Shown here piece by piece: positions 42,530-57,559 of a stretch of 64,000 nucleotides of DNA. Source of the DNA: Nocardiopsis sp. YSL2 (GTDB taxonomy: Bacteria > Actinomycetota > Actinomycetes > Streptosporangiales > Streptosporangiaceae); the NCBI RefSeq assembly GCF_030555055.1, contig NZ_JAMOAO010000001.1, positions 3,844,001-3,908,000 of the forward strand, written 5' to 3'. The notes beneath the pieces are model-generated. The model worked only from the letters and a program-made list of their open reading frames with translations, searched no databases and was not told where the DNA came from. A program made the position numbers and the translations under genes. Positions within the stretch are counted from its first letter, which is position 1, and each line of letters opens with the position of its first letter.

Positions 42530-44416
42530 ATGCTGCCTGCTTCCGCCCTCGCGCTGGTACGCGACCGGGTCCTCCTGGTCGCCCTTCTCCTGATCGCCGC
42601 CGCGGTGGGGCTCAAGGTCTACCTGCTCCAGGCGTCCTACTTCGTCGAGGACGACTTCCTGTTCTTCGCCGGTGCCCACGCCACCGACCTGAGCCCGGAG
42701 TACCTGTTCGGCCTGCACAAGGGCCACCTGATGCCGGGCGGGTTGTTCCTGGTCTACCTCCAGACGTCGTTCTGGCCGTTCAACTGGTGGGTCAGCGCCG
42801 GGATCATGCTCGTCCTGCAGACGGCGGCGCTGCTCGGCTTCCTGTGGCTGCTGTGGGAGCTGTTCGGCCGGCGCTGGGCGCTCCTGGTGCCCGTGACCGT
42901 GTACGCCCTGGCCCCGCTGACCATTCCCGTCCTGGGGTGGTGGTCCGCGGCGCTCAACGCGGTCCCGCTCCAGCTCGGCATGGTGTTCGCGCTGCTGTGG
43001 ACGGTCCGCTACCTGCGCACGTCGGACCGCCGGTTCGCGCTGTGGGCGGGGATCGCCGTCGGGTTCGCGATGCTGTTCAACGTCAAGGCGATGTTCCTGC
43101 CGGCGCTGCTCTTCGCGGTCGCCGTCGCCGTGCTCTACCCGGGCGGCCCGCTCACCGCCGCCCGCCGCGCGTGGGCGCTGCACCGGTCCTTCTGGACGGC
43201 GATGGCGGTCCTCTTCGGCGCCTACACCGTCCTGTACCTGGCCCGGATGCGCGCGGGGAACGGCGGCGAGGGCGCCGGCGTGCCGGAGTACGGGCCCGCC
43301 ATGGCCATGGTCCGGGGACTGCTCACCGAGGTCTTCCCGGTCGGCGCGCTGGGCGGTCCCCTGGAATGGTCGCCCGTGACCCCGACCGGCGGGTTGATCG
43401 ACGCGCGCGGGGAGATCGTGCTGGTGTCGTGGGCGGTGTTCGGCGTGATCGTGCTCGCGAGCCTGTGGCTGCGCCGCCGCGCGTGGCGGGCCTGGACCGT
43501 GCTGCTCGGCTACGTCGTGGTCGTGGACGTGGTCCCCACGATCGTGGCGCGCGGACGCTTCCAGGAGGTGGCCGCCGCCGACCCCCGGTACGTGGCCGAC
43601 GCCGCCCTGGTGTTCGCGCTGTGCCTGGCCATGGCCTTCCTGCCGACCCGAGAGGAGCGCGCCCGCTCCGCCGTGGGCCCCGAGGCGCCGCCCGCGGCCC
43701 CGGGCCGCACCACCCGGGTCGCCGCCGTGCTGGCCACGGCGGCGTACGCCGGTACGGCGGTGTACTCCACCGTCGCCTACGCGGACACCCTCAGCGGCGA
43801 CCGGCTCCAGTGGTACCTCGACACCGTGCGCGTGGCGATGGACGGCGTGCCGGAGGAGGGGGGACTCTACTCCCGCCCGGTCCCCGAGGACATCGTGCTG
43901 GAGTGGAACGGGCACCGGCGGATGAGCTCGTACGTCCTGGCGCCGCTGGCCGATCCGGACACGGCCGAGCGGATGAGCTCGCCGGAGCAGTCCGATCTGG
44001 CGTACGTGTTCAACGACGGCGGCTACCTGGTCCCGGCCCGCCCGTCCGACGACAGCCACGTGTTCGGCCCCGCCGCCGGCGAGGAGTGCATCGAGTCCTG
44101 GGACGGCCTGATGGCCTGGCCGGTCAGGGCGGACGGCGGGCCGCCCCAGATCGTCACCATCGGCTACACGTCCGAGGACGGGACCGAGGTCGCCGTGGCG
44201 CTGGGAGACGACTGGCTCGACGTGGAGCTGCCGGCCGCCGAGGAGAACAGCACCTGGTACGTGCCCGTGGGAGCGGCCGGAGACCAGCTGGCCCTGTACA
44301 CGTCGGCGGACGAGGTGTGCGTGAGCTGGGTGTCGATCGGCACGATGGCCCCGACGGTCGAGGGCAACCCGTGGGACCCGGACGAGGGCGGCCGCACCGA
44401 CCCCGCCGCGGACTGA
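42530..44416 (+). CDS. Multi-span membrane protein, GT-C-like glycosyltransferase
   Basis: 628 aa. About eleven hydrophobic helices cover residues 12-420 or so, and the last 200 residues form a soluble, probably external domain. Directly after helix 1 is FVEDDFLFFAGAH (Glu40-Asp41-Asp42), the position and kind of acidic motif that marks GT-C enzymes, which use polyprenyl-phosphate sugars. ATG 42530 has GGAGAG upstream. The frame runs back to 42041 but that part overlaps the divergent gene. I do not recognise a named family. With UbiA-DprE1-DprE2 3 kb away, an arabinosyl- or ribosyl-transferase is a fair guess. Confidence 0.72.
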   Translation: MLPASALALVRDRVLLVALLLIAAAVGLKVYLLQASYFVEDDFLFFAGAHATDLSPEYLFGLHKGHLMPGGLFLVYLQTSFWPFNWWVSAGIMLVLQTAALLGFLWLLWELFGRRWALLVPVTVYALAPLTIPVLGWWSAALNAVPLQLGMVFALLWTVRYLRTSDRRFALWAGIAVGFAMLFNVKAMFLPALLFAVAVAVLYPGGPLTAARRAWALHRSFWTAMAVLFGAYTVLYLARMRAGNGGEGAGVPEYGPAMAMVRGLLTEVFPVGALGGPLEWSPVTPTGGLIDARGEIVLVSWAVFGVIVLASLWLRRRAWRAWTVLLGYVVVVDVVPTIVARGRFQEVAAADPRYVADAALVFALCLAMAFLPTREERARSAVGPEAPPAAPGRTTRVAAVLATAAYAGTAVYSTVAYADTLSGDRLQWYLDTVRVAMDGVPEEGGLYSRPVPEDIVLEWNGHRRMSSYVLAPLADPDTAERMSSPEQSDLAYVFNDGGYLVPARPSDDSHVFGPAAGEECIESWDGLMAWPVRADGGPPQIVTIGYTSEDGTEVAVALGDDWLDVELPAAEENSTWYVPVGAAGDQLALYTSADEVCVSWVSIGTMAPTVEGNPWDPDEGGRTDPAAD

Positions 44417-44453: not shown

Positions 44454-45740
44454 TCATTCGCTCGGGACGACCGCCCGCTTCGGCACGGAGCCGGGTCCGT
44501 GGTGCCGCGACCACCGCCGGGAGGGTTCCTCCACCCACCGGTGCGTGGCCATGGCCAGCAGGATCGTGCCGGCGGTCACCGGGACCGCGTCCAGGAGGAA
44601 GGACCCCGTGAAGATCTCCTGGCCGGTGAAGTCGCGCCACAGGTACAGGACCACGAACTGCCACAGGAACACCCCGTAGGAGATCCGGGCGAGGAACTGG
44701 ACCGTGCGGTGCCGCAGCAGCGAGTCCAGCCACCGCCCCCGCTCCCAGGCCTCGGCCCGGCGCAGGGGGAGCGGTGCGCCCGTGGGGCGCGGTGCCAGGG
44801 CGGCGGGGGCCAGGACGAGGAACGCGAAGCCGATGCCGGTCGCCGAGTCCACCGCCGAGCTCCAGACGTCCCCGGCGCCGATGAAGCGGCCGCCGGCGGC
44901 CGGTGTGGCGTTGAGCGCTAGGAACGCGCCCGCCGCCATCCAGCAGACCCCGGGGGAGGCGGCGACCGTCCGGCACACGCGCCGCACGGGTCCGTCCGGG
45001 CCGGGTTCGCGATGGGCCCACTCCGACACGACCGCCAGGGCCATCCCGGCCGCGAACAGGCCCAGCGCCCGGGGCAGCCACGCGTGCATGTACTCGCGCG
45101 ACTCCGGATAGAACTGCGGCACCAGGGCGGCGAAGCCCAGCAGCGCCATGACGGCCAGGCCGCTGAGCAGGCGTCGGCCGCGGGCGTCCACCGTGGGGCC
45201 GCGCCGCGCCCACAGCGACAGTGCCAGGGCCAGCAGCGGAAGCAGCAGGTAGAAGCTCACCTCGACCGACAGACTCCACATCTGCCCCAGGCCGTACGGG
45301 CCGGTGCCGAGCCAGGGCGGGTCGGTGTCGAAGGTGAAGGTCAGCGTCAGGACCTCCAACCAGTGGCGGAGGTCGAGTTCGGCGCGCGAGTGGACCAGCA
45401 GGGCGGTCAGGGCCACCACCCAGTAGGCGGGGAACACGCGCACGGCGCGTCGCCAGAGGTAGGGGAGCGCGTGCGGCCCCCGCTCGCCGTCCAGGACGGC
45501 GCGGGCCCACGGCCGGAAGAGCAGGACGCCGGAGAGCGCGAAGAAGAGGGGGACCGCCAGGTCGAGGGCGCCCAGCAGGCCGCCGACGACGCCCGGGGCC
45601 AGGGAGTCGCCGGTCTCGGTGGCCACATGGAAGAAGAGGACCATCAGGGCGGCCGCCGCGCGGATGCCGTCGAGGGTCTCGTGGCGGCCGCCGACCTGGG
45701 GCAGCCGGCGGTCGGCGGTCGGGGAGAGGGTGCGCTCCAT
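44454..45740 (-). CDS. Acyltransferase family 3 membrane protein
   Basis: 428 aa with about ten membrane helices. The N-terminal LDGIRAAAALMVLFFHVA (His38) carries the conserved histidine of the family, which O-acylates sugars or other surface molecules with acyl groups drawn from the cytosol. QMWSLSVEVSFYLLLPLL and ISYGVFLWQFVVLYLW are further family blocks. Likely decorates a cell-envelope glycan made by the neighbouring genes, by inference. Its promoter region contains the second KstR-like site, and it is divergent from the DUF3068 gene. Confidence 0.88.
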   Translation of the reverse strand: MERTLSPTADRRLPQVGGRHETLDGIRAAAALMVLFFHVATETGDSLAPGVVGGLLGALDLAVPLFFALSGVLLFRPWARAVLDGERGPHALPYLWRRAVRVFPAYWVVALTALLVHSRAELDLRHWLEVLTLTFTFDTDPPWLGTGPYGLGQMWSLSVEVSFYLLLPLLALALSLWARRGPTVDARGRRLLSGLAVMALLGFAALVPQFYPESREYMHAWLPRALGLFAAGMALAVVSEWAHREPGPDGPVRRVCRTVAASPGVCWMAAGAFLALNATPAAGGRFIGAGDVWSSAVDSATGIGFAFLVLAPAALAPRPTGAPLPLRRAEAWERGRWLDSLLRHRTVQFLARISYGVFLWQFVVLYLWRDFTGQEIFTGSFLLDAVPVTAGTILLAMATHRWVEEPSRRWSRHHGPGSVPKRAVVPSE

Positions 45741-45941: not shown

Positions 45942-46856
45942 ATGCGCCGTACCGTTGCGGTCGTTCTCATCGCGCTGGGGGTCTTCTTTCTTGCCTTCGC
46001 ACCCATGATGCGCACGTGGATGTCGAGCTCCCTGATGAAGACTCCTCTGGACTACTACAGTCAAACCGTCAACGAAGGAGAGGTCGACTACTTCAACATC
46101 GAGGACGTGGAGGCGGTCGAGAACGCCCGGGTGGAGGCGCACTCGACGATCCGCGCCGACGTGGCCTCCAGCACGGACGACACCGTCGTCTGGGACCAGT
46201 TCACCTGGATCAAGGACGCCGACACCGACTTCGGCATCTCGTCGGCCAGCCGTCGTGCCGGGCACGACCGGGTCACCGGCGAGGCGGTCGACTGCTGCGA
46301 CGCCATGATCAACGACGAGGCCACCACCCAGGCCGGAATCCTGTGGAAGTTCCCCTTCTTCCCGGAGCAGCGCGACTACGACTTCTTCGAGACCACCGTC
46401 CAGGAAGTCGTCCCCATGGAGTTCCAGGGCGTCGAGGACGTCGAGGGTATCGAGACCTACCGCTACGTCCAGACCGTCGAGCCGACCACCGTCGGCGAGC
46501 GCACCATCCCGCGCTCCGTGGCGGGTCTGGAGGGCGACGGCGACATCACCGGCGATGAGCAGTTCTCGATCGTGCGCACCTACTGGGTCGACGCCGTGAC
46601 CGGAACCCCGATCAAGGTCAGCGAGGACCAGCACCGCGCCGTGGTCTACGAGGGCGAGGAGGTCCTGACCCTGCTGAGCGGTGAGCTCACCTTCGACGAG
46701 GCGAGCGTGCAGGACAAGATCGCCAGCACCGAACAGGGCCGGACACTGCTGCCCCTGCTGCGCACCACCATCCCGGTGGGGTCCCTGATCATCGGCGTCG
46801 GCCTCATCGGCATCGCGACCGTCCTGCTGATCGTGGGACGCCGCGGCGCCCACTAG
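45942..46856 (+). CDS. DUF3068 (PorA-like) membrane-anchored protein
   Basis: 304 aa. An N-terminal hydrophobic helix (about 4-24) leads to a large extracytoplasmic domain (25-270), and a second helix (SLIIGVGLIGIATVLLIVG) lies near the C-terminus, ending RRGAH. The pattern and blocks such as LDYYSQTVNEGEVDYFNIED match the DUF3068 family, often labelled porin PorA in actinobacteria, though a porin function is unproven. A near-perfect AGGAGGG ribosome binding site precedes the ATG. It is upstream of ubiA in the same direction. Confidence 0.82.
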   Translation: MRRTVAVVLIALGVFFLAFAPMMRTWMSSSLMKTPLDYYSQTVNEGEVDYFNIEDVEAVENARVEAHSTIRADVASSTDDTVVWDQFTWIKDADTDFGISSASRRAGHDRVTGEAVDCCDAMINDEATTQAGILWKFPFFPEQRDYDFFETTVQEVVPMEFQGVEDVEGIETYRYVQTVEPTTVGERTIPRSVAGLEGDGDITGDEQFSIVRTYWVDAVTGTPIKVSEDQHRAVVYEGEEVLTLLSGELTFDEASVQDKIASTEQGRTLLPLLRTTIPVGSLIIGVGLIGIATVLLIVGRRGAH

Positions 46857-46956: not shown

Positions 46957-47994
46957 ATGTCCTCACCAGTGGGCCACCGGAGGGCCCGGCACACCGGCAC
47001 CGTGCCCGCGGACCCCGTCGTGCCCGCCGAATCCGTCGTGCCCGCGGCACCCGGTCCGGACCCCCGGTCCCCCCGGGCCGCGCGCTCGCTCCCCTTCGCC
47101 CTGCTGCGCGCCTGCCGCCCCCGCCAGTGGCTCAAGAACCTCCTCGTCTTCGCCGCCCCGGCGGCCGCCGGGGCGCTCGGCCAGCCGTGGGCCCTGGCCG
47201 CCTGCGCGGCGGCCTTCGTCCTCTTCTGCCTGGCGGCCGGCGGGACCTACCTGCTCAACGACGTCAGGGACGTGGAACGCGACCGCGCTCACAAACGCAA
47301 GCGCGGTCGGCCGGTGGCCTCGGGCGAGCTGCCCGTCCCCGTGGCAGTGACGGCGGGCGCCGTGCTGGTCGCGGTCGTCCCTCCCGCCTCCCTGCTGCTC
47401 GGCAACCCGGGGCTGACCGCCCTGCTCACCTGCTACGTCGTCCTCACCCTCGCCTACACGCGCTTCCTCAAGGACGTCGTCGTGTGCGACCTGGTCGCGG
47501 TCTCCGCCTGCCATGTCCTGCGCGCCGTCGCGGGCGCGGTGGCCGTCGGGGTCCCCCTCACCACCTGGTTCGTCATCGTGGTGTCCCTGGCCGCCCTGCT
47601 CGTGGTGGTCGGCAAGCGCGAGGCCGAGCTGCGCGCCGCGAACGCCGTCGCGGCCGACGCCGTCGCGCCGACCGCGCCCGCCGACCCGGCCGCCGTGTTC
47701 CTGGCGGCCCGCGAGACGCTGTGCGGCTACTCCGTCTCCTACCTCACCCAGACCCGCACCACCGTCTCCGCCGCGATGATCGTCACCTACTGCGTGTGGG
47801 CCCTGGAACCGGCGGAGCACACCACCTTCCACGCGGTCAGTATCGTGCCCTTCATCATGTTCGTGCTCCGCTACAACCTGCTGGTCGACCGCGGCGTCGG
47901 CGAGGAGCCCGAGGAGATCGCGCTGCGCGACCGGCCGATCCAGGCCGTCCTCGTCGCCCTCGTGACCCTGGTCGGTCTGGGGATCTACCTGTGA
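46957..47994 (+). CDS. ubiA: Decaprenyl-phosphate phosphoribosyltransferase (UbiA family)
   Basis: Membrane prenyltransferase-fold enzyme. The mycobacterial counterpart (Rv3806c) joins 5-phosphoribosyl diphosphate to decaprenyl phosphate, the first committed step to decaprenyl-phosphoryl arabinose. 345 aa with a 45-residue disordered lead, then RPRQWLKNLLVFAAP. The first Asp-rich motif is NDVRDVERD (101-109), and the second region is YTRFLKDVVVCDLVAVSACH. About nine helices. dprE1 and dprE2 follow directly, which makes this assignment much safer than homology to quinone prenyltransferases alone. Confidence 0.88.
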   Translation: MSSPVGHRRARHTGTVPADPVVPAESVVPAAPGPDPRSPRAARSLPFALLRACRPRQWLKNLLVFAAPAAAGALGQPWALAACAAAFVLFCLAAGGTYLLNDVRDVERDRAHKRKRGRPVASGELPVPVAVTAGAVLVAVVPPASLLLGNPGLTALLTCYVVLTLAYTRFLKDVVVCDLVAVSACHVLRAVAGAVAVGVPLTTWFVIVVSLAALLVVVGKREAELRAANAVAADAVAPTAPADPAAVFLAARETLCGYSVSYLTQTRTTVSAAMIVTYCVWALEPAEHTTFHAVSIVPFIMFVLRYNLLVDRGVGEEPEEIALRDRPIQAVLVALVTLVGLGIYL

Positions 47995-48004
47995 CCCGTC
48001 GCCG

Positions 48005-48036
48005 CCCGAGCCCGCGCCCGCGTCCGCGGGCTCGGG
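48005..48036 (+). terminator. Hairpin between ubiA and dprE1
   Basis: 12-bp perfect stem (CCCGAGCCCGCG with CGCGGGCTCGGG), loop of eight, 10 bp after the ubiA stop. An intra-operon attenuator is possible. Confidence 0.5.
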
Positions 48037-48061
48037 GCCGGGGCACCCCCGGAGGAACCCC

Positions 48062-49417
48062 GTGAACCATCCGACGCTGCTCACCGGGTGGGGCCGCACC
48101 GCGCCCACCGCCGCCCGCGTGGTCCGACCGCGCACCGCCGCGCAGGTGGCCGACGCCCTCGCCCGGACCGGGCCGCGCGGTGCCCTGCCGCGCGGGTTCG
48201 GCCGCTCCTACGGTGACGCCGCCCAGGCCGCCGGAGGGCTCGTCCTGGACTGCCGTGAGCTGACCGGCCCCGTGCGGCTCGACGCCGACCGCGGTACGGT
48301 CACCGCGCCCGCGGGCACCGCCCTGGGCCGACTGGCCGCCCACCTGCTGCGCCGCGGCCACATCCTGCCGGTGATGCCCGGCACGGGGTACGTCACGCTG
48401 GGCGGGGCGATCGCCGCCGACGTCCACGGCAAGAACCACCACCGCGACTCCTCGTTCGGGGCGCACGTCCGCTCCCTGACCCTGCTCACCCCCGACGGCC
48501 GCGCCCGCGTCCTCGCCCCCGACGGCGCGGACGCCGACCTCTTCTGGGCGACCGTCGGCGGTATGGGCCTCACCGGGGTGGTCACCGAGGCGACCGTGGC
48601 CGTCCGGCCCGTGGAGACCGCCCACATGCGGGTGGACACCGACCGTACCGGCGACCTCGACGCCACGCTGGAGCTGATGTCGCGCGACAACGGCGCCCCC
48701 TACTCCGTGTGCTGGGTGGACCTGCTCGCGCGCGGGGGCGCCCTGGGGCGGGGCGTGCTCACCCGCGCCCACCACGCCCGGCCCGCGGACCTGCCCCGGG
48801 CCCTGCGCGCCGACCCGCTGCGGCTGAGTCCGTCCCACCGGCTGAGCGCACCGCCGTGGGCCCCGTCCGGGCTGCTCAACCGCTGGACGGCGGCAGCGTT
48901 CAACGCCGCCCGCTTCCACGGTGCGCCCGAGCGCAGACGCGGCCAGGCGCAGCCCCTGCCGTCGTTCTTCCACCCGCTCGACGCGGTCCGGGGCTGGAAC
49001 CGGATGTACGGTCCGCACGGGTTCGTCCAGTACCAGTTCGTCGTGCCCTTCGGCGCCGAGGACGTGCTCACCGGCATCGCCCGGGAGCTGTCCCGCGCGG
49101 GGGCGCCGTCCTTCCTCGCCGTCCTCAAGCGGATGGGCGAACCCACACCGGGGCCGCTCTCCTTCCCGCGTCCGGGGTGGTCGCTGGCCATGGACCTGCC
49201 CGCCACCCTGCCCGGGCTCGCCGGCCTGCTCAACGGGTTCGACGAGCGCGTGCTGGGCGCGGGCGGGCGCCTGTACCTGGCCAAGGACAGCCGCGCGCGG
49301 GCCGGGACCGTCCACGCCATGTATCCCGACCTGCCCGCCTGGCGCGCGGTCCGGGCCAGGGCCGATCCGGCCGGGATCCTGGTCTCGGACCTGGCCCGGC
49401 GTCTGCGGCTCGTGTGA
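48062..49417 (+). CDS. dprE1: Decaprenylphosphoryl-beta-D-ribose 2-oxidase
   Basis: FAD enzyme oxidising the ribose C2' of decaprenyl-phosphoryl ribose to a keto intermediate. 451 aa, GTG start after CCGGAGG. The FAD domain shows ALPRGFGRSYGDAA, VMPGTGYVTLGGAIAADVHG and the end of that domain VGGMGLTGVVTEA. The substrate domain has LSFPRPGWSLAMDLP and LYLAKDSRARAGTVHAMYP (Lys408). The residue matching the mycobacterial Cys387, the target of benzothiazinone inhibitors, is Ala376 here. Together with ubiA and dprE2 it should produce the decaprenyl-phosphate-linked arabinofuranose donor. Confidence 0.9.
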   Translation: MNHPTLLTGWGRTAPTAARVVRPRTAAQVADALARTGPRGALPRGFGRSYGDAAQAAGGLVLDCRELTGPVRLDADRGTVTAPAGTALGRLAAHLLRRGHILPVMPGTGYVTLGGAIAADVHGKNHHRDSSFGAHVRSLTLLTPDGRARVLAPDGADADLFWATVGGMGLTGVVTEATVAVRPVETAHMRVDTDRTGDLDATLELMSRDNGAPYSVCWVDLLARGGALGRGVLTRAHHARPADLPRALRADPLRLSPSHRLSAPPWAPSGLLNRWTAAAFNAARFHGAPERRRGQAQPLPSFFHPLDAVRGWNRMYGPHGFVQYQFVVPFGAEDVLTGIARELSRAGAPSFLAVLKRMGEPTPGPLSFPRPGWSLAMDLPATLPGLAGLLNGFDERVLGAGGRLYLAKDSRARAGTVHAMYPDLPAWRAVRARADPAGILVSDLARRLRLV

Positions 49418-49486
49418 GCGCGAGCCGACCGCCGGCCCCGGAGACCGTCCGGGCCGCCACCAACGCTTCGACTCGAAGGGACCGCC

Positions 49487-50236
49487 ATGCGTGACTCCGT
49501 GGGTTCGGTACGCACCGTGCTGCTGCTCGGCGGCCGCAGCGAGATCGGCCTGGCCGTCGTCGAGCGGCTCGTCCGCGACGGCGCGAGGGAGGTCGTGCTG
49601 GCGGCGCGCGGCGGGACGGCGCCACCGAGCGCCCTGACGGCTCTGGGCGCCACCGTGCACTCGCTGGAGTTCGACGCCCGGGACCCCGACACCCACACCG
49701 AGACGGTCCGGCGGGCCGTCGGACTCGTGGGCGACCTGGACGTGGTGATCGACTCCTTCGGTGTACTGGGGGAACAGGCCGACTACGACGCCGACCCGGC
49801 CGCGGCCGCGCGCGCCGCCGCGGTGAACTACACGGGGCACGTGTCGGCGGGCCTGGCCGTCGCGGCGCGGTTGCGCGAACAGGGCCACGGAGCCCTGGTG
49901 GTGGTCTCGTCCGTGGCCGGGGTGCGCGTCCGCCGCTTCAACTTCGTCTACGGCTCGGCCAAGGCCGGGCTGGACGGCTTCGCCCAGGGCCTGGCCGACT
50001 CCCTCCACGGCTCCGGCGCCCGTGTCCTCGTGGTGCGCCCGGGCTACGTGCCGACGCGGATGTCGGCGCACGTGGAGCCCGCGCCGTTCCCCGCCACCCC
50101 CGGCCAGGTCGCCGACGCCGTGGCGACCGGGCTGCGTTCGGGCGCCACCACCGTGTGGGCGCCGCGCGTCCTCCAGCCGGTGTTCGCGGGGATGCGGCTG
50201 ATGCCGCGCGCCCTGTGGCGCCGACTGGGCCGTTGA
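49487..50236 (+). CDS. dprE2: Decaprenylphosphoryl-2-keto-D-erythropentose reductase
   Basis: Short-chain dehydrogenase that reduces the DprE1 product to the arabinose epimer with NADH/NADPH. 249 aa. The nucleotide loop GGRSEIG (15-21), catalytic Ser in SSVAG (141-142) and YGSAK (Tyr155, Lys159) are present. DVVIDSFGVLGEQADY replaces the usual NNAG, as in DprE2 proteins. The 69-bp gap after dprE1 contains GAAGGG near the ATG. The three-gene order ubiA-dprE1-dprE2 gives two of the three known post-transfer steps. A separate DPPR phosphatase gene was not seen. Confidence 0.88.
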   Translation: MRDSVGSVRTVLLLGGRSEIGLAVVERLVRDGAREVVLAARGGTAPPSALTALGATVHSLEFDARDPDTHTETVRRAVGLVGDLDVVIDSFGVLGEQADYDADPAAAARAAAVNYTGHVSAGLAVAARLREQGHGALVVVSSVAGVRVRRFNFVYGSAKAGLDGFAQGLADSLHGSGARVLVVRPGYVPTRMSAHVEPAPFPATPGQVADAVATGLRSGATTVWAPRVLQPVFAGMRLMPRALWRRLGR

Positions 50237-50634
50237 TTCGGGCGCCCTCAGACGGGGCCTTCGCGCCTTGCGGTGCACTCCCTCGTTCCTTGGGAGTGCA
50301 CCTCCAGTCACTCCAGGACCCGTCGGCGCCCTCATCTGTGCTTTCTTTGGGCCTCCGCTCGTTCCTCGCTTTGGCCCGGCCAACCCCCCTGGGGTCCCCG
50401 TGAGCGGGGCCGCTCACTCCACACCCCCTGGCATCACTCGGGGGCTCTGAGACGGGGCCTTCGCGCCTTCCGGTGCACTCCCTCGTTGCTCGGGAGTGCA
50501 CCTCCAGTCACTCCAGGACCCGTCGGCGCCCTCATCTGTGCTTTCTTCGGGCCTCCGCTCGTTCCTCGCTTTGGCCCGGCCAACCCCCCTGGGATCACGG
50601 CAGGCTGAACGGCCTACCCTTCACACCTTCGGGC
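50237..50634. repeat. Two 144-bp direct repeats with internal hairpins
   Basis: Copies at 50250-50393 and 50450-50593, exactly 200 bp apart, differ at only a handful of positions. Each begins AGACGGGGCCTTCGCGCC and contains a perfect 11-bp stem, GGTGCACTCCC with GGGAGTGCACC (50272-50302 and 50472-50502). Open frames through the repeats encode proline-rich peptides in every phase and are unlikely to be genes. No transposase or target-site duplication is seen. Confidence 0.85.
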
Positions 50635-51561
50635 TCACTCGCGTGCGGCGGTCCCCGGGCGGTCCAGCTCCTCGTTGCCGACCGGGTCGACGCCGTGCGC
50701 CACCGGGCAGCCCGCCGGGAACGTACCGATCCGGTTGACGTCGTAGCCCCGCGGGTAGCTGCGGATGTTCGGGTTGTTCTCCGCCCACAGCGGCTCCTCG
50801 CGCGGTTTCATCCGGCGCACGATCCTCGCGCGCAGCTTCAGGGCGAGATCGGCGGCCCGGCGCCAGGACCTGCTCGGCGGCTCGTAGCGGAAGGCCTCGA
50901 TGAGCGAGTCGTCGAGGATGGCCATGGAGAACCTGCGGGCGGCTCCGGACAGGCGCGGCGGATAGAACGACACCATCAGGTCCAGGGTCGAGTCCGAGAC
51001 GCGCCGTCCCCCGTCGGTGTAGGCGAAGTGCTCGCGCTCGTAGCCGTCCATGAGGTCTCGGAACTCCTCGTAGGTCCCGGGGATGTCCTTGATCCCCATG
51101 TAGCGGCCCAGACGGCGGTAGTAATGCGTGATCGCGGAGATCTCGTGCGCGGAGAGGCGGCGCCAGCCGTAGCCGTAGTCGTTGAGCCAGCGCACCGGCA
51201 TCACCACGAAGGTGCTGAGGACGTAGCGGTAGTCGTCGTTGCCGATGTCGTAGGAGCGGTGCATCTGGTTCATCCGGCGCAGGGCGTCACGGCCGGGGCC
51301 GGGCTCGAACCCGTGCTGGACCATGTTGCCCAGGATCAGCGCGGTGTCGTCGTAGCGCTTCTGCGTGCTGCCGGTGAACTCGTCGGTCTCCCCGAGCAGG
51401 CGGCCGATGCTGGGCACGGCGTAGGTGCGGTACAGGGCGATGCCCAGGGCGCGTCCCATGTCCCAGGGGAACTCGTGGGACTGCAGGATCTGCATGATCC
51501 GCACGCAGTCGGCCTCGGCGTCCAGGCGGTGGATCTCGTCGCGGAAGTCGAAACGCTTCAT
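50635..51561 (-). CDS. DUF2236 (MpaB-like oxygenase) family protein, copy 1
   Basis: 308 aa. DUF2236 proteins are helical, and the family includes the haem-dependent MpaB/latex-clearing type oxygenases. The conserved core contains LRRMNQMHRSYDIGNDDYRY, then VLSTFVVMPVRWLNDYGYGW, with the characteristic Arg/His/Asp set, while the N-terminus is FDFRDEIHRLDAEADCVRIM. ATG 51561. No signal peptide. It lies 67 bp downstream of a paralogue, and the pair shares a 131-bp identical DNA block. The substrate is unknown, and enzymatic activity is inferred only from family. Confidence 0.82.
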   Translation of the reverse strand: MKRFDFRDEIHRLDAEADCVRIMQILQSHEFPWDMGRALGIALYRTYAVPSIGRLLGETDEFTGSTQKRYDDTALILGNMVQHGFEPGPGRDALRRMNQMHRSYDIGNDDYRYVLSTFVVMPVRWLNDYGYGWRRLSAHEISAITHYYRRLGRYMGIKDIPGTYEEFRDLMDGYEREHFAYTDGGRRVSDSTLDLMVSFYPPRLSGAARRFSMAILDDSLIEAFRYEPPSRSWRRAADLALKLRARIVRRMKPREEPLWAENNPNIRSYPRGYDVNRIGTFPAGCPVAHGVDPVGNEELDRPGTAARE

Positions 51562-52333
51562 GGGGGTCCTCGGATGAGCGGGGGCGGGGGCGTGAGCGGA
51601 GGAGGGGCGGGACCGCGGGGGCGGCCGACTACCGTTCGGCGGTGTCCTCGGCCGTCGGCGCCGCGGACGCGCTCGCGACCGCCTGGCCCGGGGCGGGCAC
51701 CTGGGCCCCGGTCCCCGGCACCTCCTGGGTGGCCAGCCCGTGCGGCACCGGGCAGCCCTGCGGGAACGTGCCGATCCGCGAGGGGTCGTAGCCGGTCGGG
51801 TAGCTGCGGATGTTGGGGCTCTGCCGGGCCAGGCGCGGCTCCACGCGCGGTCTCATCCGGCGCACGGCCTTCGCACGCAGCCGCAGTGCCGTGTCGGCCA
51901 GCTTCCGCCACGTCGCGGAGGGCTCCGGGTACCCGAACGCCTCGATGAGGCGGTCGTCCAGCAGCGCCCGGGTGAACGGGCGCACCAGGGGCCGCTGCCA
52001 GGCCGGGTAGAAGTCCACCATCAGCGCGAGGGTGGCGTCGGAGACCGCGCGTCCGCCGTCGGTGTAGGCGAAGTGCTCGCGCTCGTAGGAGTCGAACAGC
52101 TCGTAGAATTCCTCGTAGGTCCCGGGGATGTCCTTGATCCCCATGTGCTTGCCCAGGCGGCGGTAGTAGTTGGTGTTCGCGGCGATCTCGTGGTCGGTCA
52201 GCCGGCGCCAGCCGTAGCCGTAGTCGTTGAGCCAGCGCACCGGCATCACCACGAAGGTGCTGAGGACGTAGCGGTAGTCGTCGTTGCCGATGTCGTAGGA
52301 GCGGTGCATCTGGTTCATCCGGCGCAGGGCGTC
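51158..52333. repeat. 131-bp identical block shared by the two DUF2236 genes
   Basis: Positions 51158-51288 and 52203-52333 (offset 1045) are identical base for base, including all synonymous sites, whereas sequence on either side differs. This suggests a recent duplication followed by divergence outside, or gene conversion within this block. Confidence 0.85.
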
Positions 52334-52606
52334 CCGCCCCCGGCCCGGTCCGAACCCGAACTCCATGATGTCGTTGAGGATCAGCGCGGTGTCGTCGTAC
52401 CTGTGCTGCGTGCGCTCGGTGAACTCCTTGGTGTCGGCCAGGAGCCGACCGATACTGGGCACGGCGTAGGTGCGGTACAGCGCCAGCCCCAGCGCCTGCT
52501 CGAAGTCCCACGGGAACTCGTGGCTGCCCAGGATGAGGACGATCTCCCGGCACTCGGACTCGGCGTCCATGGCCGCTATCCGGTCACGCCACTCGAACCG
52601 CTTCAT
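51629..52606 (-). CDS. DUF2236 (MpaB-like oxygenase) family protein, copy 2
   Basis: 325 aa, first gene of the pair (ATG 52606), starting KRFEWRDRIAAMDAESECRE. The central part is nearly the same as copy 1 (LRRMNQMHRSYDIGNDDYRY). The C-terminal third differs more and ends in a Thr/Ala/Ser-rich tail (APTAEDTAER). Promoter unknown; the 200-bp gap upstream (52607-52817) contains TTGAACGTTTCACGG near 52674, a half-palindrome resembling, but not matching, the KstR-like sites. Confidence 0.82.
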   Translation of the reverse strand: MKRFEWRDRIAAMDAESECREIVLILGSHEFPWDFEQALGLALYRTYAVPSIGRLLADTKEFTERTQHRYDDTALILNDIMEFGFGPGRGRDALRRMNQMHRSYDIGNDDYRYVLSTFVVMPVRWLNDYGYGWRRLTDHEIAANTNYYRRLGKHMGIKDIPGTYEEFYELFDSYEREHFAYTDGGRAVSDATLALMVDFYPAWQRPLVRPFTRALLDDRLIEAFGYPEPSATWRKLADTALRLRAKAVRRMRPRVEPRLARQSPNIRSYPTGYDPSRIGTFPQGCPVPHGLATQEVPGTGAQVPAPGQAVASASAAPTAEDTAER

Positions 52607-52817: not shown

Positions 52818-53399
52818 TCAGGCGGCCATGCGCTCCGCCACCCGGCTGACCAGGGCCAACAGGACCTCCTTGGACGACTGGCGCTCGCGCGCGTCGCACA
52901 GGATGACCGGGATCCCCGGGTCCAGGCTGAGGGCGTCGCGCACCTCCGACGGTTCGTAGGCGTGGGCGCCCTCGAAACAGTTGACCGCCACCACGAACGG
53001 CACACCGCGCCGCTCGAAGAAGTCCACGGCCGCGAAGCAGGTCTCCAGGCGGCGGGTGTCGGCCAGGACGATCGCGCCGAGCGCGCCCGCGGAGAGCTCG
53101 TCCCACATGAACCAGAACCTCTCCTGCCCGGGCGTGCCGAACAGGTACAGGACGAGCTGGTCGTTGATGGTGATGCGCCCGAAGTCCAGCGCCACCGTGG
53201 TGGTCGTCTTGGCCTCGACCCCGGACAGGTCGTCGATGCCGTAGCTGGCCTCGGTCATCACCTCCTCGGTGCTGAGCGGGGCGATCTCGCTCACCGAGGC
53301 GACCATCGTGGTCTTACCGGCGCCGAAACCGCCCGCCACCAGGATCTTGAGCGCCGACGGGACCGGGGCCTGGGTGTCGTCAGAGTCGCTGGATGCCAT
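52818..53399 (-). CDS. cvnD: Conservon GTPase (CvnD/Ras-like ATP/GTP-binding protein)
   Basis: 193 aa. P-loop GGFGAGKTT, switch-like DFGRI, and the FGTPGQERFWFMW Walker-B/switch II region are visible. NCFEGA replaces the classical NKxD specificity motif, as in conservon GTPases, so nucleotide preference is less certain. ATG 53399 lies inside the end of the DUF742 gene (20-bp overlap). Last of the four conservon genes. Conservon members form membrane-associated complexes resembling eukaryotic GPCR signalling, affecting development in Streptomyces. Confidence 0.9.
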   Translation of the reverse strand: MASSDSDDTQAPVPSALKILVAGGFGAGKTTMVASVSEIAPLSTEEVMTEASYGIDDLSGVEAKTTTTVALDFGRITINDQLVLYLFGTPGQERFWFMWDELSAGALGAIVLADTRRLETCFAAVDFFERRGVPFVVAVNCFEGAHAYEPSEVRDALSLDPGIPVILCDARERQSSKEVLLALVSRVAERMAA

Positions 53400-53787
53400 C
53401 GAGAACCGCCTGGAGTACGTCCCGGCTGACCGGGCTCTTTGCCGTGTAGGGTGCGCGGGCCAGGGCCAGGCCGCGGTTGAGGAGGTCGCTGAGCAGGACC
53501 TTGACGACGGCGACCGGGATGTCCAGGTGCGCGGACACCTCGGCCACCGACAGGGGGCGTCGGCACAGCTCCAGGATCCGGAGCTGTTCGGGTTCGAGCG
53601 CCATCTCGTCGATCTCGGCCCGCTTGGCGGCGATGACCACACTGATCATGTCGAGCTTGACGGCGTCGGCGTGGTCGCGGCCCTGGGCGATCACGTACGG
53701 GCGGACGAGGGGGCCCGCCTCCTCGGCCCCCGCGGGCACCGACGGATCGTCCGCTCCGTCAGGCCGTTCCTCGTGGTTGGCTGGCAT
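53380..53787 (-). CDS. cvnC: Conservon DUF742 protein (CvnC)
   Basis: 135 aa with LVRPYVIAQGRDHADAVKLD, VVIAAKRAEIDEMALEPEQ and a winged-helix-like C-terminus (HLDIPVAVVKVLLSDLLNRG). DUF742 proteins are the third component of actinobacterial conservons and are thought to connect the sensor to the GTPase. ATG 53787 is nine bases after the CvnB stop. It overlaps cvnD. Confidence 0.9.
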   Translation of the reverse strand: MPANHEERPDGADDPSVPAGAEEAGPLVRPYVIAQGRDHADAVKLDMISVVIAAKRAEIDEMALEPEQLRILELCRRPLSVAEVSAHLDIPVAVVKVLLSDLLNRGLALARAPYTAKSPVSRDVLQAVLDGIQRL

Positions 53788-53796
53788 AACCGTTTC

Positions 53797-54228
53797 CTAT
53801 CGCGTGGATTCCCCGGTCGCGCCCTCGTGCCGGGGTGCGGCGTCCAGGTACCGACCCACCTGATCGACCAGGACGTTCATCTCGTAGGCGATGAGTCCGA
53901 CGTCGGCGCTCTCCTCGGCCAGGACGGCCAGGCACGCGCCGCGTCCGGCGCCCGTGACGAACAGGTAGGCACTCTCCATCTCGACGACCGTCTGGAGGAC
54001 CTCGCCGCCGCCGAAGTGGCGTCCGGTGCCCCGCGCCAGGCTCTGGAACGCGGAGGCCACCGCGGACAGGTGCTCGGCGTCCTCCTTGACCAGGTCGCGG
54101 GAACTGCCGATCAGCAGACCGTCGGCGGAGAGCACGATGGCGTGCCGCGATCCGACCGCTCGTTCGAGCAGTTCGTCGAGCAGCCAGTCGATGTCCTTGG
54201 TTCCGGTGCTATCGGGGGTGCTCGTCAC
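53797..54228 (-). CDS. cvnB: Conservon roadblock/LC7 protein (CvnB)
   Basis: 143 aa roadblock-fold protein (DIDWLLDELLERAVGSRHAI at the N-terminus, then GLLIGSSRDLVKEDAEHLSA, and a C-terminal helix VLVDQVGRYLDAA). Roadblock proteins regulate small GTPases, here probably CvnD. GTG 54228 is two bases after the sensor kinase stop, which supports co-translation. Confidence 0.9.
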   Translation of the reverse strand: MTSTPDSTGTKDIDWLLDELLERAVGSRHAIVLSADGLLIGSSRDLVKEDAEHLSAVASAFQSLARGTGRHFGGGEVLQTVVEMESAYLFVTGAGRGACLAVLAEESADVGLIAYEMNVLVDQVGRYLDAAPRHEGATGESTR

Positions 54229-54230
54229 GG

Positions 54231-57014
54231 TTACGCGTCCTTGTCGGTGTCGTCGGTCTGCTGCTTGCTCTCGCGCCGTCCACGGTCGGTGCCCTTCTGG
54301 AAGGCGGACATGTTCTGGCGCAGGCGGGCCAGGCGGTCCGAGGAGACGGTGGGGTCTCCTGAGGGCGTGCCGCCGGCCGCCGGGCCGCCCAGGACGTCGC
54401 CGTCGTGGTCGGTCGCCAGCTGCGGTGCCAGGTTCTCCTGCGGGCGCCGCTTGGGCAGGGGCGGGCGGCCTCCGCCCGCCTCGACCATCGTCTGCGCCCG
54501 GTCGGACGCCGGCTCCGACGGCGGAGTCGCCGTGTCGGCCGCCGACCGCCGGGTGGGGAGCGGAGGCCGGGCCTCCGCGCCGGACGGAGCCGGGCCGCCG
54601 CCCGGAGCCGGGGTGCGCCGGGGCAGCGGTCCGGTGCCGTTGGCACCGTCCGTGGTGCCGCCGGGCGCTCCGGGCCGGTCCTCGGTGCCGACGTCGCCGG
54701 ACCGGCCGCCGGTCCCGGACGCGTCGTCGCGGTCACCGGCCCCGTCGCCCCGCGTGTCACCGTCCGGCACGGCCGCGGGCGCCGGGGCGGCGGAGAACAG
54801 CGAGGCCAGACCGGTGGCCGGGGAGGCCGACCCGTCCGCCGTGTTCCCGGTGCCGTCGGCGGCCTCGGTCTCGTCGGTGACGTCGGTCGGCGGAGCGACC
54901 GACGTCAGCACCGGCTTCGTGCCGTTACCGCTGTTCGAGGGGGCCTCGATGGCGTCCCGGGACCGGCCGACGATCTCCCGGACCTCCCAGATGTCCTCGT
55001 CGCCGTCCTGCCCGGGGACCGGTCGGCGCTCGCCCGAGATCAGGCTGTGGGGCAGCAGCACGATCGCCTGCACACCGCCGTAGGGGGACTGGCGCAGGTG
55101 GACCTGGATGCCGTGCCTGTGCGCCAGGTGCGAGACGACGAACAGCCCGAGGCGCATCTTCTCGTTCAGGCGCATCACGTCGAACTCGGGCGGGTCGGCC
55201 AGCAGCGCGTTGGCCGACTCGAACTCGCCCTCCGTCATGCCCAGGCCGCGGTCCTCGATCTCGACCGTCACACCGTTGGGCACGTCGTCGCTGCTCAGCC
55301 GGACCTGGGTGTGCGGCGGCGAGAACATCGCCGCGTTGTCGACCAGTTCGGCGACCAGGTGGATGACGTCGGCGACGGCGGGGCCGTTCAGGTGCACGCG
55401 CGCGATCCGCTCACGCTTGACCCGGGTGTAGTCGCCGGACTCGGAGATGGCGCCGCGCAGGACGTCGATGAGCGGCATCGGCCGGTGCCAGGTGCGGCCC
55501 GGCGCCTCGCCGCCCAGGATCAGCAGGTTCTCGGCGTTGCGGCGCGAGCGCGTGGCGAGGTGGTCGAGCTTGAACAGCTGGGCCAGCTGGTCGGGGTCCT
55601 CCTGTTCGCGCTCCATCTTGTCCAGCAGCCGCAGCTGGCGGTGGACCAGCGTCTGGCTGCGGTGGGCGATGTTGAGGAACACGCGGTTGACGCCCTGGCG
55701 CAGCTCCGTCTGCTGGACGGCCTCGTCGACGGCGGCGCGCTGGGCGGTGTTGAACGCCCGGGCGACGTCGCCGATCTCGTCGTCGGTCGTGGTCAGCTGG
55801 GGGACGGCCGTGTGGGTGTCGACCGAGTCGCCCTCGTGCAGGCGGCGCATCAGCGCGGGCAGCCGTGTCTCGGCCAGGTCGGTGGCGCCGTCGCGCAGGT
55901 CCAGCAGGCGGGCGGTGAGCAGGCGGGCGGAGCGGGTGGCCAGCAGGAAGGCGAGCCCGGTCACCGCGGCGACGCCGAGGCTGCCCAGCACCGCGGTGAG
56001 GACGGCCCTGTTCGCGTCCTCACGGGTCAGGGACGCGGCGTACAGGGCCTCGTCGGAACCGATGTCGGTGAGTTCGGAGAGGACGTAGGAGTAGTCCGCC
56101 GACCACTGGTCGGCGTCCACCGGCAGGGACAGGTCCTGGACCGTCTCCGCCTGGAACGTGAGCGGATCGGTGACGGTCTCCGTCTCGATCTGGCGGTGGA
56201 TGATCTGCTGCTGCATGTCCAGGAGGCGCGAGTACTCGGGGCTGTCGAGCAGGGCCGTCACGCGCTCCTGCTGGCCCTCCCCCTCCAGATAGGGGGCGGA
56301 GGCGTCCAGGAAGCCCTGGTAGGAGCCGACCAGCCGACCGAACTCGTGCTGGTCCTCGTGCCCCAGTTCCTCGGTGGCGAAGGCCCGTGCGAGCTGGGCG
56401 TCGCTCTGCGCGAACAGGTCCACGGCGCGGAACAGGGTCGTGGCGGTGTAGGCGGGGCTCACCGCGGAGCCCTCGGTCCCCTCCCGTGTCTGCGTGTCGA
56501 AGGTGTCGGAGCCGGCCACGATCAGGGAGTTGTAGTAGGTGAGCACGTCGGACCTGGAGGCGGACCCCTCGTCCACGGCCTCCCGGATGCCGCCGATGTC
56601 CGAGTACTGGCTGTGCAGCTCGCTGATGCGCGCGGCGGTTCCGTCGGGGGCGAGGTCGACGAACTCGAAGAGGTCGTCGATGACCGCGCCCATCGACTCG
56701 TCGGAGCGGGTGCGGGACTCGGCCAGCTCCTGCTGCAGCGTCCGGTCCTGGGGGTTCTCGATGTAGGCGATCGTCTGGGACCGTTCCTGCATCACGTTCA
56801 CGAGGCCGACGGCGGCGGGGGCGATCATGTCCTCGGTGGCCTTGGCCTGGATGATCTGGATGACGGCGTTTCCGGCGAGGGCGACGGTGAGGATCAACCA
56901 CAGGGCGATCAGTGCTGCCACCGGGATCATGACCATGGTGCGGAGCCGGGCGGTGATCGTCCGCCTGCGTCGCTCGGGTGCTGCCTGCACGGTTCTCCTG
57001 TCGATCCGCGTCAC
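54231..57014 (-). CDS. cvnA: Conservon sensor kinase with NIT domain (CvnA)
   Basis: 927 aa from GTG 57014 (GAGGA upstream). TM helix 1 (about 27-50), extracellular nitrate/nitrite-sensing-like helical domain (51-340), TM helix 2 (VLTAVLGSLGVAAVTGLAFL), HAMP-like segment, then an HATPase_c domain (VAELVDNAAMFSPPHTQV, GLGMTEGEF, MRLGLFVVSHLAHRHG). There is no clear HisKA phospho-acceptor His, as typical for conservons, so it may signal through the roadblock/DUF742/GTPase set. The last 200 residues are disordered and Pro/Gly/Asp-rich. Confidence 0.92.
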   Translation of the reverse strand: MTRIDRRTVQAAPERRRRTITARLRTMVMIPVAALIALWLILTVALAGNAVIQIIQAKATEDMIAPAAVGLVNVMQERSQTIAYIENPQDRTLQQELAESRTRSDESMGAVIDDLFEFVDLAPDGTAARISELHSQYSDIGGIREAVDEGSASRSDVLTYYNSLIVAGSDTFDTQTREGTEGSAVSPAYTATTLFRAVDLFAQSDAQLARAFATEELGHEDQHEFGRLVGSYQGFLDASAPYLEGEGQQERVTALLDSPEYSRLLDMQQQIIHRQIETETVTDPLTFQAETVQDLSLPVDADQWSADYSYVLSELTDIGSDEALYAASLTREDANRAVLTAVLGSLGVAAVTGLAFLLATRSARLLTARLLDLRDGATDLAETRLPALMRRLHEGDSVDTHTAVPQLTTTDDEIGDVARAFNTAQRAAVDEAVQQTELRQGVNRVFLNIAHRSQTLVHRQLRLLDKMEREQEDPDQLAQLFKLDHLATRSRRNAENLLILGGEAPGRTWHRPMPLIDVLRGAISESGDYTRVKRERIARVHLNGPAVADVIHLVAELVDNAAMFSPPHTQVRLSSDDVPNGVTVEIEDRGLGMTEGEFESANALLADPPEFDVMRLNEKMRLGLFVVSHLAHRHGIQVHLRQSPYGGVQAIVLLPHSLISGERRPVPGQDGDEDIWEVREIVGRSRDAIEAPSNSGNGTKPVLTSVAPPTDVTDETEAADGTGNTADGSASPATGLASLFSAAPAPAAVPDGDTRGDGAGDRDDASGTGGRSGDVGTEDRPGAPGGTTDGANGTGPLPRRTPAPGGGPAPSGAEARPPLPTRRSAADTATPPSEPASDRAQTMVEAGGGRPPLPKRRPQENLAPQLATDHDGDVLGGPAAGGTPSGDPTVSSDRLARLRQNMSAFQKGTDRGRRESKQQTDDTDKDA

Positions 57015-57559
57015 GGGTGTTCCTCGGGGGCCGGGGGTGGCCGCTGGTAACTGGGGGAGGAGACGTCCAACCGCGCGGGGGCGGGGCGGGACGCCTCTCG
57101 GAGCCGTGTCCGCGTGCGGGCTAGGTGACGCGGACTTACCGCAGGGTAACCACTCGCGCATCCGCTCGGCGTCGCGGGTCGGCGACCAGGGCGTGGAGGG
57201 CGTGGGTTCCGCGTGCTGAGGCAGTCTGCCACGTTGGGCAGATATGTCCAGTCATCAGGTGGTTACTCACGAGGTACGGCCACTGCAGAATAGGACAAAG
57301 GTCATAAGAGTCAACAGGGGTGTGGCGGGATTCGCTCCGGCCGGGGCGGGCGGAAGGGCCGGAATTCGCTGTTCCGCCCCTGTGTTGCGACGCGGCGTAC
57401 TAGCGTTGCCGCTCGGAGTAGGCGGGTCCCCGGGTCGACCGGGCACCGCGGGCCGCCCCGTGTCCCGTCCTCGGCGGCCGCACCGCGCGGTACGCGGTAC
57501 CACTTCTCGGAAGGAGGAGGGCGCCTCCCCCCGCCGCGGCCGGTCCGGCCGCGAGGGGC
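57015..57559. other. Divergent gap between conservon and VanZ/RDD gene
   Basis: No gene supported. It contains the conservon promoter at 57287-57314 and therefore a leader of about 270 nt before cvnA. GGTAACC-type motifs recur (57147 and, as GGTTACTC, 57261), which may be protein-binding sites. I found no convincing promoter for the plus-strand gene. Confidence 0.5.
57287..57314 (-). promoter_or_regulatory. Near-consensus promoter for the conservon
   Basis: Reading on the minus strand, TTGACT (57314-57309) and TATTCT (57292-57287) are 16 bp apart, close to the vegetative sigma consensus. It points toward cvnA, about 270 bp away. Confidence 0.6.

Follow-up and report, generated by a model that had tools for sequence, protein, structure and literature searches.

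The dprE1 gene of Nocardiopsis sp. YSL2 (48062-49417, + strand) very probably encodes an ordinary, single-copy Nocardiopsis DprE1 acting in the synthesis of decaprenylphosphoryl-arabinose (DPA), in which Ala376, found at the position of the inhibitor-reactive Cys387 of Mycobacterium tuberculosis, is the prevailing state, the cysteine being probably derived, and with which no covalent inhibitor adduct is expected. The Ala376 finding itself is ordinary; the more interesting part of the window, i.e., the whole stretch of 64,000 nucleotides analyzed, is a gene for an unnamed GT-C membrane protein (42530-44416, + strand).

DprE1, its pathway partners and the cell-wall context

The product of dprE1, a predicted FAD-dependent decaprenylphosphoryl-beta-D-ribose 2'-oxidase of 451 aa, is read from a GTG start with GGAGGA just upstream. 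The G+C content by codon position in this + frame is 0.78/0.59/0.95, and a long open reading frame on the opposite strand (47855-50383) was set aside as an antisense shadow of the gene, attributed to the high G+C content of this DNA. The NCBIfam equivalog model for DprE1 (NF053785) scores the protein at 558.4 bits against a cut-off of 500, and this family model confirms, at the level of sequence, that the gene encodes DprE1, the name already given to it by the sequence-only reading. M. tuberculosis DprE1 chains from the PDB match across residues 5-450 (E 1.8e-118), with identity at 208 of 443 aligned positions (47.0%), and the FAD-binding domain PF01565 is found by Pfam with 77.1 bits. The nearest named relative, from Nocardiopsis sp. 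NRRL B-16309, is 94% identical. No activity or inhibitor data for a Nocardiopsis DprE1 were found in the literature, and we infer the enzyme activity and its product in Nocardiopsis.

The six FAD- or substrate-site residues that were checked (Tyr60, His132, Lys134, Gln334, Gln336, and Lys418) are all as in M. tuberculosis, the pocket and active-site positions compared being those of that enzyme. Tyr60 and Lys418 are also given as DprE1 site residues in the available text of PMC6153800. Further pocket positions, namely Trp230, Leu317, Leu363, and Val365, are unchanged. M. tuberculosis DprE1 (Rv3790; PDB 4fdn and others) and the Nocardiopsis protein are alike in family, domain, checked site residues and partner genes, but differ by Cys387 to Ala, Asn385 to Ser, Tyr314 to Phe, and Ser228 to Val, at an overall identity of 47%.

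The source genome (6.4 Mb, 4 contigs) holds one full-length DprE1 match; five other matches are weak and confined to query residues 8-201, and no second full-length, Cys-bearing copy was found in it. It might be argued that the protein is a DprE1-like paralogue acting on another substrate, e.g., oxidizing a sugar alcohol or a lactone, in view of its weak kinship to other oxidases of the superfamily (TIGR01679, 65 bits; xylitol oxidase, 1e-10) and of its 558 bits with NF053785, far below the 725-807 bits of sequences from the Mycobacteriaceae-like family f6. This is very improbable, as the equivalog cut-off is exceeded, the active-site residues are kept, the adjoining genes exceed cut-offs of their own and the genome has no other match of full length; the paralogue was accordingly disfavored on equivalog scores and gene neighbors.

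These neighbors are the gene for the DPPR synthase, a UbiA-type decaprenyl-phosphate phosphoribosyltransferase (46957-47994, + strand; NF008978, 362.9 bits, cut-off 207), and dprE2, coding for the SDR-type partner reductase (49487-50236, + strand; NF053786, 283.8 bits, cut-off 250), and the three genes are directly consecutive in 51 of 80 related loci. Since both partners lie beside DprE1 and exceed their equivalog cut-offs, the DPA-pathway steps bearing their names are present. The order of this pathway is UbiA, phosphatase, DprE1, and DprE2. UbiA would join phosphoribose to decaprenyl phosphate, a putative phosphatase would then take off the phosphate, DprE1 would oxidize C2' using FAD, and DprE2 would reduce C2' with inversion to give DPA, so that the DPPR synthase, DprE1 and DprE2 of the window should make DPA. 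Further upstream lie genes for a PgfA/PorA-like cell envelope protein (45942-46856, + strand; NF053601, 304.7 bits, cut-off 160; PF11271) and for a membrane acyltransferase of the Acyl_transf_3 type (44454-45740, - strand; PF01757, 107.7 bits).

Regarding the users of DPA, neither Emb (PF04602) nor AftA (PF12250) was matched in the source genome or in any of 12 congeners, the sole match to each among 21 genomes being in G019. Emb was found in 17 of 396 genomes of a phylum sample and in 16 of the 65 genomes of this sample with DprE1 over the cut-off, three or four candidates per genome being scored, which makes absences there weak. In the available portions of the literature, Nocardiopsis is described without characteristic sugars (PMC4218971) and with whole-cell sugars "not detected" (PMC13405408), and galactose, glucose, mannose and ribose, with no arabinose, are given as whole-cell sugars of Streptomonospora (PMC8448680). 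Judging by titles and abstract openings, no literature on how this order uses DPA was noticed, and none was found on an arabinosyltransferase together with the Nocardiopsis cell wall. With a DPA pathway but neither Emb nor AftA detected, it may be asked how arabinose is used in Nocardiopsis, a question that points to the GT-C gene.

Distribution and polarity of the residue at position 387

The motif PGWNICVDFP of M. tuberculosis aligns with PGWSLAMDLP of the window protein, and the full alignment of the two DprE1 proteins, gapless here, places Ala376 in the Cys387 column with no cysteine at this site, as had been read from the sequence. By residue index and alignment column, its codon is at 49187-49189 on the + strand (48062 + 3 x 375). 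Ala376 thus stands where a covalently inhibited, benzothiazinone-sensitive DprE1 requires a cysteine. Other pocket differences, from M. tuberculosis to the window protein, are Asn385 to Ser, Ile386 to Leu, Val388 to Met, Tyr314 to Phe, and Ser228 to Val.

Two overlapping sets of sequences, the counts of which are not summed, were used for this column. The first, made of the window protein and the 80 relatives nearest to Nocardiopsis, has Ala in 57, Thr in 18, Cys in 4, and Ser in 2. For the second, genomes were sampled with NF053785, and matches above the cut-off came from 65 of 396 genomes across the phylum, 59 of 61 in family f6, 55 of 81 in the order of Nocardiopsis, and 45 of 120 in the order of G019; with 214 places from sampled genomes, 12 of them under the 500-bit cut-off, plus the window, it has Ala in 127, Cys in 70, Thr in 13, and Ser in 5 (n = 215). 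Family f6 was sampled deliberately, and the overall share of Cys is inflated if anything. A partial match in G327 (405 bits) and the low-scoring FAD-domain matches of the phylum search were left out of the counts, and absences in the phylum searches, which scored three or four candidates per genome, are weak.

All 23 sequences of the genus have Ala, as do 34 of the 35 from other genera of its family, the remaining one having Ser. In family f6, Cys is found in 60 of 70 sequences (Ala 6, Ser 3, Thr 1), the six Ala sequences bearing the motif GWNVA (5) or GWNIA (1), and in group f93 in 9 of 16 (Thr 4, Ala 2, Ser 1). Only Ala occurs in group f8 (10 of 10) and in groups f83, f89, f92, and f94 together (14 of 14), and the remaining genomes of the phylum have Ala in 38, Thr in 8, and Cys in 1 (n = 47). 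Emb genes and the nesting of M. tuberculosis within f6 on the tree suggest that f6 is Mycobacteriaceae; our guess is that f93 corresponds to Pseudonocardiaceae and f8 to Streptomycetaceae. Cys387 is found mainly in the Mycobacteriaceae-like f6 and the probable Pseudonocardiaceae group f93, and Ala is the usual state of DprE1 outside Mycobacteriaceae and their relatives.

Cys387 has been termed highly conserved in various Actinobacteria (PMC3206020), a published statement that this wider sample narrows; as far as the accessible text of PMC3035642 goes, the set considered there comprised only mycobacteria, corynebacteria, Nocardia, and Rhodococcus, all with Cys387 except M. avium. Streptomyces somaliensis and Actinomadura madurae have been reported to be without a close DprE1 ortholog, which was generalized to the genera (PMC4608729, available part). 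Streptomyces YIM 130001 (L045) has a DprE1-like gene with Ala at 387, the product of which is 52% identical to the window DprE1 and, in the alignment, has Cys at the Tyr60 position. A Ser-bearing second DprE1 copy is reported for Nocardia brasiliensis (PMC4608729), which resembles the Nocardiopsis enzyme in that the reactive cysteine is naturally absent, but stands there besides a Cys-bearing copy, whereas a single full-length copy is found in the Nocardiopsis genome. DprE1 copies with GFMLS at the Cys387 motif were observed in L047, L066, G431 (L230), G434 (L236), and G462 (L227), those of the last three genomes being above the equivalog cut-off and additional to another DprE1 copy.

The polarity of the change was read from one quick LG+G4 search, with no outgroup and with columns about 384-389 excluded, on 129 rows obtained from 296 by merging those with the same residue and more than 72% identity. 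On this tree, some deep supports of which are low, four-state parsimony requires 16 changes and Cys versus the rest 5. Ala is reconstructed at the midpoint root, and the root state is without Cys for 235 of 256 possible root edges, the other 21 being in or at Cys clades. These clades comprise M. tuberculosis with most of f6 and an f93 row, a Pseudonocardia/Saccharothrix pair, and one further occurrence elsewhere (L117, G367). With midpoint rooting, and with most placements of the root giving a state other than Cys, this one quick tree suggests that the origin of Cys387 probably lies in the lineage of Mycobacteriaceae and their relatives, with a few further origins elsewhere. The Ala within f6 (L185, L094) looks secondary. 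The description of Ala as standing "in place of" a cysteine is therefore reversed: Ala is the commonest residue in the samples and does not vary within the genus (23 of 23), and it is Cys that looks derived.

Ala376 could also be imagined as a recent substitution selected for resistance, e.g., to some nitroaromatic natural product made by the organism itself or by its neighbors. There are parallels for such a change, as the benzothiazinone resistance of M. avium has been ascribed to Ala at 387 (PMC3206020) and 6 of 70 f6 sequences have Ala amid a Cys background. For Nocardiopsis, however, this is extremely improbable: Cys occurs in none of 23 sequences of the genus and none of 35 from the rest of the family, parsimony puts Ala deep in the tree, and no obvious antibiotic cluster was seen among the 18 window genes scanned. 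A recent resistance substitution was accordingly rejected on the residue distribution and the tree.

Consequences for drug response

According to the available text of PMC6153800, covalent inhibitors are reduced by the FADH2-containing DprE1 to a nitroso form attacking Cys387, which is essential, and the IC50 of macozinone (PBTZ169) rises from 0.3 uM for the wild type to 3.6 uM for C387S. Natural resistance to benzothiazinones is reported to be caused by Ala in M. avium and by Ser in M. aurum (PMC3206020, accessible part). Both sources uphold the premise that loss of Cys387 removes covalent inhibition. With no thiol at Ala376 for the nitroso intermediate of a benzothiazinone, a covalent adduct would not be expected, and insensitivity of the Nocardiopsis DprE1 to covalent inhibitors at the level of the target is a reasonable and sound prediction, although it is not new and not peculiar to this organism. 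This insensitivity would be limited to covalent inhibitor classes, because non-covalent 2-carboxyquinoxalines are active on Cys387 mutants, as cited in the available text of PMC6153800. Moreover, the drug response need not depend on Ala alone, because Asn385 to Ser and Tyr314 to Phe also differ.

The sequence-only reading had gone further and expected the organism to be naturally resistant to covalent inhibitors. This holds for the target as predicted above, but resistance of the organism to benzothiazinones cannot be inferred from Ala376, because Emb and AftA were not found in the source genome and the 12 congeners, and the genus is described without characteristic sugars. As in M. avium DprE1, where Ala at the Cys387 position is reported to account for the natural resistance to benzothiazinones (PMC3206020 and PMC3035642), the reactive thiol is absent; unlike in Nocardiopsis, this Ala occurs in a mostly Cys-bearing lineage and is probably a secondary change. 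The cysteine required by benzothiazinones looks to be characteristic of mycobacteria and some of their relatives and not general to actinobacterial DprE1. Its distribution is of help in predicting which spectrum covalent DprE1 drugs will have, and corrects the view of Ala as a sign of resistance.

The GT-C gene upstream of dprE1

The unnamed gene at 42530-44416 (+ strand), a candidate user of DPA in view of its predicted structure, its structural matches and its linkage to dprE1, encodes a protein of 628 aa from the chosen ATG, with a C-terminal CBM-like domain. By sequence it belongs to no known arabinosyltransferase family of Pfam or NCBIfam: neither database gives a match for the protein, and a Pfam search at E up to 1 with 12 homologues gave one weak, irrelevant match and no arabinosyltransferase family. 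Six more distant homologues gave one PMT_2 match below the cut-off (23.5 versus 26.1) and otherwise none. Searches of PDB sequences with the protein, single or as a profile, gave nothing meaningful, and the homologue from L306 gave no match.

An AlphaFold model built from 12 sequences (pLDDT 84.7, pTM 0.84) predicts a GT-C membrane fold. Its best Foldseek match is EmbC (7bvh, E 1.6e-5, TM normalized to the query 0.38), and VIA-align gives Z 19.6 with an oligosaccharyltransferase (rmsd 4.6, 330 aligned), 16.7 with AftD (rmsd 4.8, 340 aligned), 15.2 with AftB (rmsd 4.8, 349 aligned), 14.4 with EmbB (rmsd 13.7, 386 aligned), and 11.1 with AftA (rmsd 5.5, 377 aligned). For residues 507-607, the matches are to CBM6 and CBM35 modules (Z about 9). 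The Asp pair D41 D42, early in the chain, is invariant in two alignments, one of 12 and one of 10 sequences; in the latter, which includes four f6 sequences, R353, Y354 and D357 are also invariant. The predicted fold is thus shared with the arabinosyltransferases Emb, AftA, AftB, and AftD, but the protein, unlike them, has no meaningful PDB sequence match and no Pfam arabinosyltransferase family. Since the scores of oligosaccharyltransferases and Pmt enzymes against the model equal or exceed those of arabinosyltransferases, the fold alone cannot name the sugar transferred.

The block of genes for GT-C, acyltransferase, PgfA, UbiA, DprE1, and DprE2 is found in 13 of 15 loci of the order (L007-L020, L025); the first three genes are absent within 6 kb in L017 and the gene order differs in L018, while L009 ends early upstream and the GT-C match is partial or at the locus edge in L007, L016, and L019. 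Among 81 genomes of the order, 54 have both GT-C and DprE1, 3 DprE1 alone, 4 GT-C alone, and 20 neither (Fisher p 3e-12, with genomes treated as independent despite their relatedness), and in 48 of the 54 pairs the two genes start within 15 kb. Beyond the order, the family was found at E up to 1e-5 in 17 of 395 other genomes of the phylum sample, three candidates per genome being scored, namely in G231, G155, and G354 and, as a single match per genome, in 14 of 15 from f6. In f6 the homologue lies more than 200 kb from Emb where both are on the same contig (G019, G091, G167, G299, G378), and otherwise on a different contig. In G231 and G155 (L308, L309) an AftD gene (PF11847; 777 and 207 bits) is within 3 kb of the homologue. 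A second homologue of G155 (L309:7012-9114) is in tandem with the first and close to AftD. The homologues of the f6 genomes G019, G091, G167, and G299 (L304-L307) have no Pfam or NCBIfam name, and that of L304 adjoins a sugar-nucleotide epimerase-like gene.

It can be hypothesized, with somewhat less than even confidence, that Nocardiopsis and much of its order have a DPA pathway without Emb and AftA (as judged from the source genome and 12 congeners), the product of which is used by an unrecognized family of GT-C arabinofuranosyltransferases represented by 42530-44416. A DPA-dependent arabinosyltransferase is the best single guess for this gene, and a tentative one. It is favored by the joint occurrence of the gene and dprE1 in the order, by their adjacency there, and by the homologues that lie within 3 kb of AftD in two lineages elsewhere (L308, L309). 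Against it, five genomes with the GT-C gene (G485, G486, G519, G530, G231) are without DprE1, the best match being below 94 bits with all candidates scored; among them G231 has AftD together with the homologue, yet a best DprE1 match of 63 bits. Arabinose is also absent from the whole-cell sugars reported for Nocardiopsis and Streptomonospora in the available texts (PMC4218971, PMC13405408, PMC8448680). The main alternative is that the enzyme uses another polyprenyl-phosphate-sugar donor. Furthermore, the family was absent from all 10 DprE1-bearing f8 genomes and from the f6 genome G290, in a search with all candidates scored and no positive control, and the GT-C protein therefore cannot be the only user of DPA. 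If the arabinosyltransferase assignment is true, an arabinosylated envelope glycan would exist in bacteria recorded without characteristic sugars, and mycobacteria would carry an uncharacterized enzyme of the same GT-C family.

On the other side of dprE2, two tandem genes for MpaB/Lcp-type oxygenases (50635-51561 and 51629-52606, - strand) are matched, among the 80 related loci, in Nocardiopsis loci only, within the available flanks. At 52818-57161 (- strand), a gene for a sensor kinase-like protein is followed by smaller genes and one for a GTPase-like protein, an arrangement that may resemble the cvn operon of actinomycetes.
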